In this document: piece by piece, positions 9,174 to 48,375 of the stretch
Layout of the letters: each line of letters opens with the position of its first letter
Position numbering within the stretch: the stretch's first letter is position 1
Origin: an uncultured Lachnospiraceae bacterium
GTDB taxonomy: Bacteria > Bacillota > Clostridia > Lachnospirales > Lachnospiraceae
Assembly: GCA_947630805.1 (NCBI GenBank)
Contig: CANRIV010000011.1
Span: 1 to 64,000, forward strand
Direction of reading: 5' to 3'
DNA: 64,000 bases
Notes under the pieces: generated by a model
Told to the model about the DNA's origin: nothing
The model's database searches: none
What the model saw: only the letters and a program-made list of their open reading frames with translations
Translations under genes and position numbers: made by a program

Positions 9174-9180
9174 AATAAAA

Positions 9181-9447
9181 AATGCGTTGAAGAAAAGGAG
9201 TAGCGGATAACTCTTTCCCAGAGAGCAGAGGATAGGTGGAAGCTCTGTATTGAAGTGTTCGTGAAGGTAGTTTTGGAGCAGAAACGGTGAACAAAAAGTA
9301 GCTGTTTACGGCTCGTCCCCGTTATAGGATAAGATAAGTGATAAGACAAAGGTGGTACCGCGGGATTTCCGCCCTTTGACGGTACCGGCATAAAATACGC
9401 AGGAAAACAGTCATGCTGATATCGTAGAAGCAGGGCTGTTTTTCTTT
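9181..9447 (+). promoter_or_regulatory. T-box leader (tRNA-Val responsive) for valS
   Basis: The 14-base T-box core is present as AAAGGTGGTACCGCGG at 9348-9363, in an antiterminator that competes with the terminator at 9401-9447. Stem I spans roughly 9186-9285 and contains the AGTA element near its base and an AGAGAGCAGAGGA-type upper region. The specifier is read as GTA at 9267-9269 (context GAAG-GTA-GTT), a valine codon, which agrees with the downstream gene. Uncharged tRNA-Val would stabilise the antiterminator and allow valS transcription. This element accounts for the 376-base gap between the TPR-like gene and valS. Confidence 0.92.
9401..9447 (+). terminator. T-box regulated intrinsic terminator
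   Basis: GGAAAACAG pairs with CTGTTTTTC and is followed by TTTATTT. It lies immediately after the antiterminator region and 30 bases before the valS start, as expected for T-box transcription attenuation. Confidence 0.8.
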
Positions 9448-32807: not shown

Positions 32808-32887
32808 TAAGAGTAAAAAAAGAAAAAGAGCCTGTATTGACAGAAATATGGAAAAGAGATATACTTCTATGGAATTAAAAATAAAAT

Positions 32888-32976
32888 ATATTCGCTAGGG
32901 GCGCCATGCGCTGAGATAGACAATATGTCTTGTCCCTTATTACTTGATGCGGTTAGTACCGTCGTAAGGAAGCAGT
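32888..32976 (+). promoter_or_regulatory. TPP riboswitch (THI element)
   Basis: Conserved THI-box segments are present in order: GGGGCGCC then GCTGAGAT near 32898-32916, a variable P3 hairpin (AGACAATATGTCT), CCCTTATTACTTGATGCGG and TTAGTACCGTCGTAAGGAA. It lies about 115 bases before thiT. No T-tract terminator is seen between the aptamer and the gene, so control is more likely at translation initiation. With the hairpin upstream it accounts for the 330-base gap between thiN and thiT. Confidence 0.93.
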
Positions 32977-33092
32977 TATAGTAATTACAAGTATGTCTGA
33001 AAGAAAATAATAATTTATTTATGAAGCAGGCTTTATATTATATTGTTGAATGGATTCTCTGGCGATAAATGAAATCAAAGGAGGATTTTTTT

Positions 33093-42204: not shown

Positions 42205-43389
42205 ATGTCAAAAAAAGTAGTTATTGCCGGTGCATGCCGTACGGCAATCGGTAAAATGGGTGGAGCGTTAAGTACAACTCCTGCATCTGATCTTGGCGCA
42301 GTTGTCATTGAAGAAGCATTAAAGAGAGCCGGTGTGCCAAAAGAACAGGTAGACCACGTATATATGGGATGTGTTATTCAGGCAGGACTGGGACAGAATG
42401 TTGCCCGTCAGGCTTCTATTAAGGCAGGGCTTCCTATCGAAACACCTGCAGTCACAGTAAATGTTGTGTGTGGCTCAGGATTGAACTGTGTCAACATGGC
42501 TGCACAGATGATTCAGGCAGGAGATGCTGATATTGTTATCGCCGGCGGTATGGAAAATATGTCAATGGCACCATATGCTCTTCCAAACGCACGTTTTGGT
42601 TATAGAATGAATGACGGTAAAGTTGTCGACACTATGGTAAATGATGCGCTGACGGATGCGTTCAACCATTACCATATGATGATTACAGCAGAAAACGTAG
42701 CAGAGCAGTGGAACATCAGCAGAGAAGAGTTAGATGCGTTCTCAGCAAAGTCACAGCAGAAATGTGAGGCAGCAGTTGCAGAAGGCAGGTTTAAGGACGA
42801 GATTGTTCCTGTAGAAGTTAAGACAAGAAAAGGAACTGTTATAGTAGATACAGATGAAGGACCAAGACCAGGAACAACCGCTGAATCACTCAGCAAATTA
42901 AAATGCTGTTCCGGAAAACAGGACGGAGTTGTTACTGCAGGTAATGCTTCCGGTATCAATGATGGTGCGGCAGCAGTGGTCGTTATGAGCGAAGAAAAAG
43001 CAAAAGAACTGGGAGTAACACCAATGGCAACTTTTGTAGCAGGAGCTCTCGGTGGTGTAGATCCTACGATTATGGGCGTAGGTCCCGTAGCTTCTACCAA
43101 GAAAGTAATGAAGAAGACAGGTCTGACTGTGGACGATATGGATTTGATTGAAGCCAATGAAGCTTTTGCAGCACAGTCTGTTGCTGTTGCAAGAGAGTTG
43201 TCATTTGATATGAGCAAAGTAAATGTCAATGGTGGTGCGATTGCCTTAGGTCATCCGGTAGGAGCTTCCGGCTGTCGTATTCTTGTTACTTTGCTTCATG
43301 AGATGCAGAAGAGAGATGCAAAGAAAGGTCTCGCAACACTTTGCATCGGTGGTGGAATGGGTTGTTCCACGATTGTAGAGCGGGATTAA
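42205..43389 (+). CDS. thl: Acetyl-CoA acetyltransferase (thiolase)
   Basis: A 394-residue biosynthetic thiolase that condenses two acetyl-CoA into acetoacetyl-CoA, the first step to butyryl-CoA. The acyl-accepting Cys is in VCGSGLN (Cys89), the His in [10 protein letters not shown] and the second Cys in GGGMGCS (Cys387). It is first in thl-crt-hbd-bcd-etfB-etfA. Codon choice is typical of the strongly expressed genes of this window. A 148-base structured gap separates it from crt. Confidence 0.97.
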
Positions 43390-43391
43390 TT

Positions 43392-43448
43392 TAAGAAAAG
43401 ATAATGAGGCGTGCGTTTGTAATTTACGATTATCCTAAGAAAAGATAA
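43392..43448 (+). repeat. 13-base direct repeat in the thl-crt gap
   Basis: TAAGAAAAGATAA occurs at 43392-43404 and again at 43436-43448, 44 bases apart. The second copy forms the apical part of stem P2 of the RNA element described next. Confidence 0.6.
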
Positions 43449-43511
43449 ATGTAACTACAAAGGGGACAGATGTCCGCACTGAGAAAGCAAGGGCTTTCGC
43501 GCACGGCTCAT
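43404..43511 (+). ncRNA. Candidate four-way-junction RNA element between thl and crt
   Basis: P1 closes the element: ATGAG-G-CGTGCG (43404-43415) with CGCACG-G-CTCAT (43500-43511), 11 pairs and one G-G mismatch. Inside are P2 (TTTGTA/TACAAA, then TTAC/GTAA and TTATC/GATAA), P3 (GGAC-AGAT-GTCC) and P4 (GAAAGC-AAGG-GCTTTC). The P3-P4 linker is GCACTGA. It ends 27 bases before crt. I do not recognise a known class. A dispersed intergenic repeat or an mRNA processing site are alternatives to a riboswitch. Confidence 0.5.
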
Positions 43512-43537
43512 ATTTTTATGAAAAAAGGAGACATAAT

Positions 43538-44329
43538 ATGGAATTCATTACATATGAGCAGGAAGGGTTTGTAGGGATTCTTACAATCAACAGACCCAAA
43601 GCATTAAATGCTTTAAACAGTCAGGTGCTGGATGAGTTAGATGCCGCTTTGGATAAAATCAATGTAAATGACACCAGAGCATTAATTCTGACCGGTGCCG
43701 GGGAAAAATCTTTTGTGGCAGGTGCGGATATTGGAGAGATGTCTACACTTACCAAAGAAGAGGGCGAAGCGTTCGGAAAAAAAGGAAATGACGTGTTCCG
43801 GAAACTGGAAACGCTTCCAATTCCTGTTATTGCGGCCGTAAATGGTTTTGCGCTGGGAGGCGGATGTGAAATTTCTATGAGCTGTGATATCCGAATCTGC
43901 TCGGACAACGCTGTTTTTGGACAGCCGGAAGTAGGGCTTGGTATTACACCGGGATTTGGCGGTACGCAGAGACTGGCAAGAATCGTAGGTCCGGGAATGG
44001 CGAAGCAGATGATTTATACGGCAAGAAATATTAAGGCGCAGGAAGCTTTGAGAATCGGTCTTGTCAATGCGGTTTATCCACAGGAAGAACTGATGGAAGC
44101 TGCAAAAAAGATGGCATCCGGAATTGCGATGAACGCACCGATTGCAGTGAGAGCATGCAAAGAAGCTATTAACAAGGGACTTGATGTGGCAATGGATGAA
44201 GCGATTGTCATTGAGGAAAAACTGTTCGGCAGCTGTTTTGAAACAGAAGACCAGAAAGCCGGTATGGGCAACTTCTTAGAGAAGGATAAAGAAAAGAAAT
44301 TAAAGGTGGTACCTTTTAAAAATTTATAA
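43538..44329 (+). CDS. crt: 3-hydroxybutyryl-CoA dehydratase (crotonase)
   Basis: A 263-residue enoyl-CoA hydratase-family enzyme converting 3-hydroxybutyryl-CoA to crotonyl-CoA. The oxyanion and catalytic regions are visible: AGADIGEM (near 65), NGFALGGGCEISMSCDIRI (near 106), GQPEVGLGITPGFGGTQRL (near 128) with both catalytic Glu positions. It has a good AAAGGAGA ribosome site. It is 58 bases before hbd. Confidence 0.96.
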   Translation: MEFITYEQEGFVGILTINRPKALNALNSQVLDELDAALDKINVNDTRALILTGAGEKSFVAGADIGEMSTLTKEEGEAFGKKGNDVFRKLETLPIPVIAAVNGFALGGGCEISMSCDIRICSDNAVFGQPEVGLGITPGFGGTQRLARIVGPGMAKQMIYTARNIKAQEALRIGLVNAVYPQEELMEAAKKMASGIAMNAPIAVRACKEAINKGLDVAMDEAIVIEEKLFGSCFETEDQKAGMGNFLEKDKEKKLKVVPFKNL

Positions 44330-44387
44330 GCGCGGTAAACAGATAATACACTGCGCAAACAATTAATATATATCAGGAGGAAAAAAG

Positions 44388-45227
44388 ATGATTGTAGGAG
44401 TTATCGGTGCAGGAACAATGGGTTCCGGTATTGCACAGGCTTTCGCAATGACAGACGGTTATGAAGTTCGTCTTTGCGATATTAAACAGGAATTCGCTGA
44501 TGGCGGAAAAGCAAAAATTGAAAAGAATATTAAATTCCTTGTAGGTAAGGAAAAAATTACAGAAGAAAAAGGGGAAGAAATTTTATCCAAGATTACTACC
44601 GGTCTGAAAGATATTTGTACAGACTGTGACATGGTAATTGAAGTGGCCCCTGAGAATATGCAGATTAAAAAAGATACATTTAAGGAATTACAGAATATTG
44701 TAAAACCGGATTGTATTTTTGCTTCAAATACATCATCCCTGTCTATTACGGAAATTGGAGCAGAACTTGACAGACCAATGATTGGTATGCATTTCTTCAA
44801 TCCTGCTGACAGAATGAAATTAGTAGAAGTAATTGCGGGTGGAAACACACCAAAAGAACTGGTAGAGAAAATTAAACAGATTTCTACCGAAATTGGAAAG
44901 ACACCGGTTGAAGTGGCAGAGGCTCCGGGATTTGTTGTAAACAGAATTTTAATTCCAATGATTAACGAGGCAGTTGGTATCTATGCGGATGGTATTGCTT
45001 CTGTTGAAGATATTGATACTGCAATGAAATTGGGAGCATCCCATCCAATGGGACCTTTGGCATTAGGAGATTTGGTAGGTCTGGATATTGTGCTTGCTAT
45101 TATGGAAGTCCTGCAGGCTGAGACCGGAGATCCAAAATACCGTCCTCATACATTACTCAGAAAGATGGTACGTGCCGGTAAACTTGGAAGAAAAACGGGT
45201 GTAGGTTTCTACGACTATACAAAATAA
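44388..45227 (+). CDS. hbd: 3-hydroxybutyryl-CoA dehydrogenase
   Basis: A 279-residue NAD(P)-dependent enzyme that reduces acetoacetyl-CoA to 3-hydroxybutyryl-CoA. The Rossmann motif [14 protein letters not shown] is at residues 6-19, the catalytic His is in [15 protein letters not shown] (near 139), and the C-terminal domain has [15 protein letters not shown]. The ribosome site is AGGAGG. It is followed 26 bases later by bcd. Confidence 0.96.
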
Positions 45228-48311: not shown

Positions 48312-48375
48312 TAAATAAAAATAAGACAGGCTAAACTGTGTTTGCGCAGAGTTACAGCCTGTTTTATTTTTATTT
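48312..48375 (+). terminator. Intrinsic terminator of the butyrate operon
   Basis: AAGACAGGCT pairs with AGCCTGTTTT, with an inner stem AACTGTG/CGCAGAGTT, and ends in TTTTATTTTTATTT. Confidence 0.88.

Follow-up and report, generated by a model that had tools for sequence, protein, structure and literature searches.

A folded RNA between thl and crt

The window, by which we mean the whole 64,000-nucleotide stretch of DNA that was analysed, contains a butyrate operon. Open reading frames and protein models give the gene order expected for thl–crt–hbd–bcd–etfB–etfA:

42205–43389, + strand: thl (acetyl-CoA C-acyltransferase); TIGR01930 above its cut-off
43538–44329, + strand: crt (short-chain enoyl-CoA hydratase); best model NF004475, 384.5 bits, just below its cut-off of 394
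44388–45227: hbd (3-hydroxybutyryl-CoA dehydrogenase); best model below cut-off
downstream of hbd: an acyl-CoA dehydrogenase and two ETF-type subunits; best models below cut-off

The gap between the end of thl (43389) and the start of crt (43538) measures 148 bases. It is the longest in the operon, the others being 58, 26, 15 and 18 bases, which agrees with the first-pass annotation that the gap is long for so tight an operon. A scan for sigma-70-type promoters found no promoter-like site in positions 43380–43560, which says little, as shuffles average 0.7.

Positions 43404–43511, folded as RNA, reached a minimum free energy (MFE) of −40.8 kcal/mol compared with −22.2 (s.d. 2.9) for shuffled sequences (z −6.5), and none of 200 shuffles was as stable. 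The folded RNA between thl and crt is real and, as had been supposed, more organised than chance. It also has the shape described from direct reading, that is, an 11-pair closing stem with one G·G mismatch, three hairpins and the junction strands GG and GCACTGA. The hairpin borders held up in part: the overall shape was recovered, but a few border bases pair otherwise in the MFE fold, in which U43416 pairs with G43499 instead of closing P2, and a G43462–C43477 pair sits below P3. The parts of the gap are as follows:

43397–43403, + strand: A-rich strand AAAGATA, which can pair with UAUUUUU (43511–43517) below P1 in the whole-gap MFE fold
43404–43415, + strand: P1 5′ arm, AUGAG-G-CGUGCG, from the folds; the counterpart in a congener, G012, is GAG-G-CAUGCG
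43416–43461, + strand: P2 hairpin, TTTGTA...TACAAA, from the folds; outermost U–A pair unformed in the whole-element MFE fold
43464–43475, + strand: P3 hairpin, GGAC-AGAT-GTCC, from the fold
43483–43498, + strand: P4 hairpin, GAAAGC-AAGG-GCTTTC, from the folds; continues P1 once 67 bases are omitted
43500–43511, + strand: P1 3′ arm, CGCACG-G-CUCAU, from the fold and the G012 comparison
43512–43519, + strand: U-rich tract AUUUUUAU behind the stem, from the sequence; U5 at 43513–43517, 6 T in 8 after the G-C core
43521–43531, + strand: probable crt ribosome-binding site AAAAAAGGAGA, by eye; unpaired in the whole-gap fold

Hairpins at the same place across the genus

Our genus sample comprised 23 genomes, 18 of which (that of the window, G000, included) had a crt match at E ≤ 1e-90; genes in the relatives were named by tblastn with the window's proteins. 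In all 18 genomes thl lies directly upstream of crt, and each of the 18 gaps shows a strong hairpin shortly after the thl stop codon, with gap z-scores from −3.6 to −10.7. The first-pass annotation had looked to relatives for conservation of the stems: a hairpin at the same spot is kept in 18/18 genus members examined, but the four-way core is not. Judged by eye, the hairpins sort into five classes by sequence, namely a AAACCACAG type in seven genomes, a CTGGTTTGA type in four, a GGCTGG type in four, the hairpin of G005 alone, and that of G000 together with G012. The genus rows are not independent: in one class of seven genomes, six carry almost identical hairpins. In a tree of thl, crt and hbd, the first three classes match clades; this genome branches with G005 (support 0.967), whereas G012 falls with the AAACCACAG clade (0.964). 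Because the tree separates G000 from G012, the hairpin type that they share may be older in that part of the tree.

Within the classes, the pairing persists as the bases change. In the CTGGTTTGA class (A), for which G002 was represented by the first 57 bases of its gap alone, 98.5% of cells pair, as against 38–56% with partners slid. Compensatory changes occur in 2 of its 17 pairs, which 42 of 500 shuffles equal, and double-changed pairs number 1/10 and 0/12 in the other two classes (B and C). Covariation in the genus hairpins is thus consistent but weak; the classes are small or little diverged.

Likeness to G012 and possible origin of the four-way shape

The G012 gap holds a plain hairpin that reads GAG-G-CATGCG...CGTGCATG-G-CTC, then GCCTTTTTATGA; its counterpart in the window reads GAG-G-CGTGCG...CGCACG-G-CTC, then ATATTTTTATGA. 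On the 3′ side (the P1 3′ arm, neighbouring bases and the U tract), 22 of 27 positions are identical between the two, a score that 0 of 1,000 shuffles reached, and seven other congeners did not stand out in the same test. The alignment is weaker without the U tail, when 14 of 300 shuffles reach its score, and is then suggestive only. Eight of the ten stem positions inward from GAG are the same, the G·G mismatch included; the remaining positions comprise one compensatory pair, A–U to G–C, and one changed on a single side. The two outermost A–U pairs of P1 are unpaired in G012. The compensatory changes sought in all four helices as support for an RNA were therefore found in part: the outer stem is kept in G012 with this one compensatory pair, but P2, P3 and the junction were found in no relative.

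What sets the window apart from G012 is a stretch of about 67 bases, part of which resembles the end of thl:

43416–43482, + strand: putative insertion of about 67 bases within the P1/P4 hairpin (P2, P3 and the junction strands), absent from G012
43384–43404, + strand: direct repeat copy 1 (21 bases, 18/21 identical), in the thl stop-codon region
43428–43448, + strand: direct repeat copy 2 (21 bases, 18/21 identical to copy 1), inside P2

This 67-base part has no significant likeness in 17 congener gaps and no model match there. When it is left out, the window gap becomes one long hairpin with z −7.4; folded alone, the 67 bases give z −3.1. No exact repeat as long as the 13-base core of the 21-base repeat arose in 2,000 gap shuffles, and the alignment score of the full repeat was reached by 2 of 2,000 shuffles and by 1 of 478 other stretches of the window. 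The four-way shape is best read as a G012-like hairpin enlarged in its 5′ arm, in the simplest history partly by copying of the thl tail. One alternative is that G012 may instead have lost these bases, against which stands the finding that other congeners carry plain hairpins behind thl. The element of the window looks like a local, enlarged version of the ordinary hairpin kept by close relatives, not a new riboswitch.

The thl–crt gap compared with other gaps of the operon

Our comparison of intergenic gaps drew on 80 loci from named genomes, on 18 from the genus and on the window. It gave 98 thl–crt gaps with duplicates included; the L060 row was dropped, having no thl upstream. Of these gaps 87 are distinct, 18 in the genus and 69 outside it. 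Folding z-scores were taken for gaps of at least 40 bases and U-tract counts for gaps of at least 30, and all bcd–etfB gaps came from outside the genus. Among distinct gaps of at least 40 bases within the genus, z ≤ −3 was reached by 18/18 thl–crt gaps, compared with 1/10 crt–hbd gaps (the window's own) and 0/7 hbd–bcd gaps. Outside the genus, the corresponding counts were 38/50 for thl–crt, 19/51 for crt–hbd, 20/43 for hbd–bcd and 5/28 for bcd–etfB, a comparison limited by control gaps that are shorter on average. Where both gaps were scored, thl–crt was more structured than crt–hbd in 46 of 55 rows, duplicates included. A strong stem-loop thus lies 3′ of thl and is stabler than other intergenic sequence, as in SRPS-type operons. 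Since 19 of the 69 distinct thl–crt gaps outside the genus are shorter than 40 bases, the hairpin is common, not universal.

Some thl–crt gaps hold additional structured DNA. At L072:2767–3000 the gap contains a long structured element, seen by eye also at L059, L061, L073 and L076; the element matches 6 of 100 family genomes, and three of these have 7–9 matches each, which makes it a dispersed repeat of Lachnospiraceae relatives, and these loci gave no Rfam match at gathering score. In G002 (L117:2300–2550; L033 is the same gap), the usual hairpin is followed by some 250 near-palindromic bases, which have a partial second copy in the same genome (81% over 159 bases). L037 and L044 share a near-identical thl-proximal hairpin, to which the L037 gap adds some 195 structured bases.

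The U-rich tract behind the stem

In the window, the G-C-rich stem is followed by a U-rich tract, as in a terminator: the core is followed by ATATTTTT, with 6 T of 8. A simple terminator scan of the gap returned no site, its loop limit of 3–8 excluding a branched stem. Across the genus, the eight bases after the G-C core include at least five T in 13 of 18 gaps and at least four in 15 of 18 by script; the counts become 14 and 16 if G002, for which the script picked the insert in place of the thl-proximal hairpin, is scored by eye on the latter. G005, the tree sister of this genome, has 1 T in 8 after the core, and G016 has 3. For comparison, 4.4% of 8-mers further downstream in the thl–crt gaps of the whole sample reach five T.

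Outside the genus, at least five T in eight follow the core in 5/45 thl–crt gaps, little different from 3/33 crt–hbd and 1/30 hbd–bcd gaps. In the pooled sample the proportions are 18/63 thl–crt hairpins compared with 3/36 and 1/31. Because 13 of those 18 come from the genus, we claim no enrichment for the wider sample; the terminator-like U tail characterises this genus, and what recurs more widely is evidence for the stem, not for the U tract. These counts from the G-C core supersede an earlier one with looser stem ends, in which A–U pairs took in the tract. By that looser count, the 63 thl–crt helices of −12 kcal/mol or below (median energy −23.7) have a median of 2 T in the following 10 bases, and 12 of the 63 have at least five.

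Known families and further copies

Consistent with the earlier statement that no known class could be recognised, Rfam gave no match in the gap at gathering score; three matches appeared at E ≤ 10, all far under it. We built a covariance model of the four-way RNA (R1) from the window sequence alone, with which distant relatives could be missed. The model matched only its own element in the 23 genus genomes, in 299 family genomes searched with stricter filters (both sets include the own genome), and in the window plus 32 loci. BLAST of the gap against its own genome found one copy at E ≤ 0.001. At E ≤ 1 there were five further matches, including, among the matches listed, one with E 0.127 over 21 bases. 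The suggestion of a riboswitch therefore lacks both an Rfam match and a second match to the four-way model, a single-sequence one, in the genomes and loci searched, and the suggestion of a dispersed repeat is unsupported for want of a second copy in the own genome, by sequence and by structure model alike. Given a single copy, no Rfam match and no model match elsewhere, a riboswitch class or a dispersed repeat is unlikely.

Searches with the gap sequence in 60 relatives and 299 family genomes returned, besides itself, short weak matches; two plasmid records also gave short weak matches, and phages gave none. Three weak matches (L003, L005 and L131) sit inside unrelated protein genes, which by eye encode a C39-type peptidase, an asparagine synthase and an ABC transporter. 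We considered a captured fragment of an asparagine-synthase gene and rejected it: comparison with six matches to that family in the own genome gave one short match (17 bases, E 0.33), outside the relevant part of the gap. At G000:C17:7596–7984, a GATase_7 (PF13537) match is split into two adjoining pieces in different open frames, which may reflect a disrupted gene or a fault in the assembly. Elsewhere in the window, a T-box leader (9178–9379) and a TPP riboswitch (32887–32987) both score over the Rfam gathering score and are ordinary. In the open-licence literature searched, titles and the starts of abstracts name no element between thl and crt, and expression ratios, sought in passages of PMC9600882 and PMC8914356, were not found there.

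Proposed function and alternatives

We favour, with a probability of about 0.6, the reading that the RNA is a leaky transcript-end element, acting as an internal terminator, a 3′ stabiliser or both, that would raise expression of thl over crt–etfA. Among the roles first proposed, that of setting the ratio of thl to the downstream genes, as an attenuator or a processing site, is the best supported by comparison, and the riboswitch and repeat roles were not supported. Transcription past thl would produce the long P1/P4 stem, followed by a short, imperfect U tract. Part of the polymerases would stop at the stem, or the stem would protect the 3′ end of a thl-only transcript, or both; the remaining polymerases would read on into crt–hbd–bcd–etfB–etfA, so that thl would be represented by more mRNA than the downstream genes. 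In this genome, the roughly 67 extra bases in the 5′ arm would add two more hairpins and so the four-way shape, with the extra arms P2 and P3 probably passive, tolerated instead of needed. Sequence analysis shows the fold, a hairpin recurring at this spot in the genus, the U tract behind it and the likeness to G012; that DNA was inserted, that the stem terminates or stabilises transcripts and that enzyme ratios shift as a result is what we infer. The unfavourable condensation that thiolase catalyses may call for an abundant enzyme.

Related arrangements have been described in cellulolytic clostridia. According to PMC9045158, stem-loops behind the first genes of ABC-importer operons in Ruminiclostridium cellulolyticum terminated 20.7–96.1% of reporter transcripts, and the terminator SL-0885 gave no termination without its U-rich tail. 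The element of the window resembles these internal terminators behind substrate-binding-protein genes in being a stem-loop with a long stem after the first gene of an operon, in its short U-rich tract, able to pair with A bases upstream, in an unpaired stem position and in lying before genes that are still needed. It differs in belonging to another operon, in a stem branched by extra hairpins, and in that termination here is predicted from sequence (PMC9045158). It also resembles SRPS stem-loops such as that of cip-cel (PMC4423207, PMC8219983), in that a strong stem-loop stands in the intergenic space where an early gene of a clostridial operon ends. By the account in PMC4423207, 28 of 33 processing-site stem-loops of C. 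cellulolyticum have no U run; the energies of the processing stem-loops range from −6.6 to −31.8 kcal/mol and show a correlation with transcript ratio (r 0.44). Unlike those stem-loops, which mostly lack U runs (PMC4423207), the window element has one, and a cleavage site beside it would be hypothetical.

These likenesses bear on the possibility, which we rate well below the favoured reading, that the gap works purely by selective RNA processing and stabilisation (SRPS), termination playing no part: after endonuclease cleavage in the gap, the stem would shield the thl message against 3′ exonucleases. This reading shares ground with the leaky transcript-end element and differs in denying any termination. 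It would fit the few T behind thl–crt helices in the looser count (median 2 of 10; 12/63 with at least five) and the recurrence of the hairpin outside the genus without a clearly enriched U tract, but pure stabilisation has no need of the T enrichment that this genome and its genus show immediately after the G-C core. It is quite improbable that the element is a dispersed intergenic repeat copy or a small palindromic element with no function in the operon. Palindromic or repeated DNA did enter other thl–crt gaps (the L072 type and the G002 insert), but the window element is single copy by BLAST and by model, and G012 has the same P1 and tail at this locus.

The four-way fold, compact and very stable, and its purine-rich junction strands could suggest a riboswitch or attenuator that senses a CoA intermediate, and Rfam riboswitches and cis-regulatory leaders likewise have compact, multi-branched folds upstream of metabolic genes. 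A riboswitch core is normally the best-conserved part. Here, no Rfam family reaches its gathering score in the gap, the branched core was found in no relative and the structure model matches itself alone in the 23 genus and 299 family genomes, and we regard this sensor as very unlikely. We give scarcely any credence to a leader peptide (ATG at 43404, 14 codons, TAA at 43446–43448) whose translation would control folding of the stem: an ATG-started frame does lie exactly at P1 by eye, but no strong ribosome-binding site and no run of a single codon can be seen, and the stretch resembles parts of three unrelated proteins and has no significant match in 17 congener gaps.

If the leaky transcript-end element is real, its recurrence after thl would explain how pathway enzymes could be made in unequal amounts from one promoter, and the thl–crt gap would be a simple place for tuning the butyrate pathway; turnover of the hairpin across clades would cleanly illustrate how function can persist while sequence does not. 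The gut lining draws on the butyrate of such operons as a main energy source. A more speculative and rather unlikely extension is that the thl–crt gap of Lachnospiraceae butyrate operons is a standing, stoichiometry-setting transcript-end site whose structure is kept while its sequence is repeatedly replaced, and that the insert has here enlarged it into a four-way RNA that would make read-through into crt–etfA condition-dependent, for example on translation of the end of thl or on a ligand.

Other parts of the same operon also show structure. The crt–hbd gap of the window (44330–44387) folds unusually well, with z −4.3 and, by eye, a GCGCGG...CTGCGC hairpin; none of the nine other genus crt–hbd gaps scored reached z −3. 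At the 3′ end of the operon, around 48313–48375, a hairpin can be seen by eye in a longer A- and U-rich surround.
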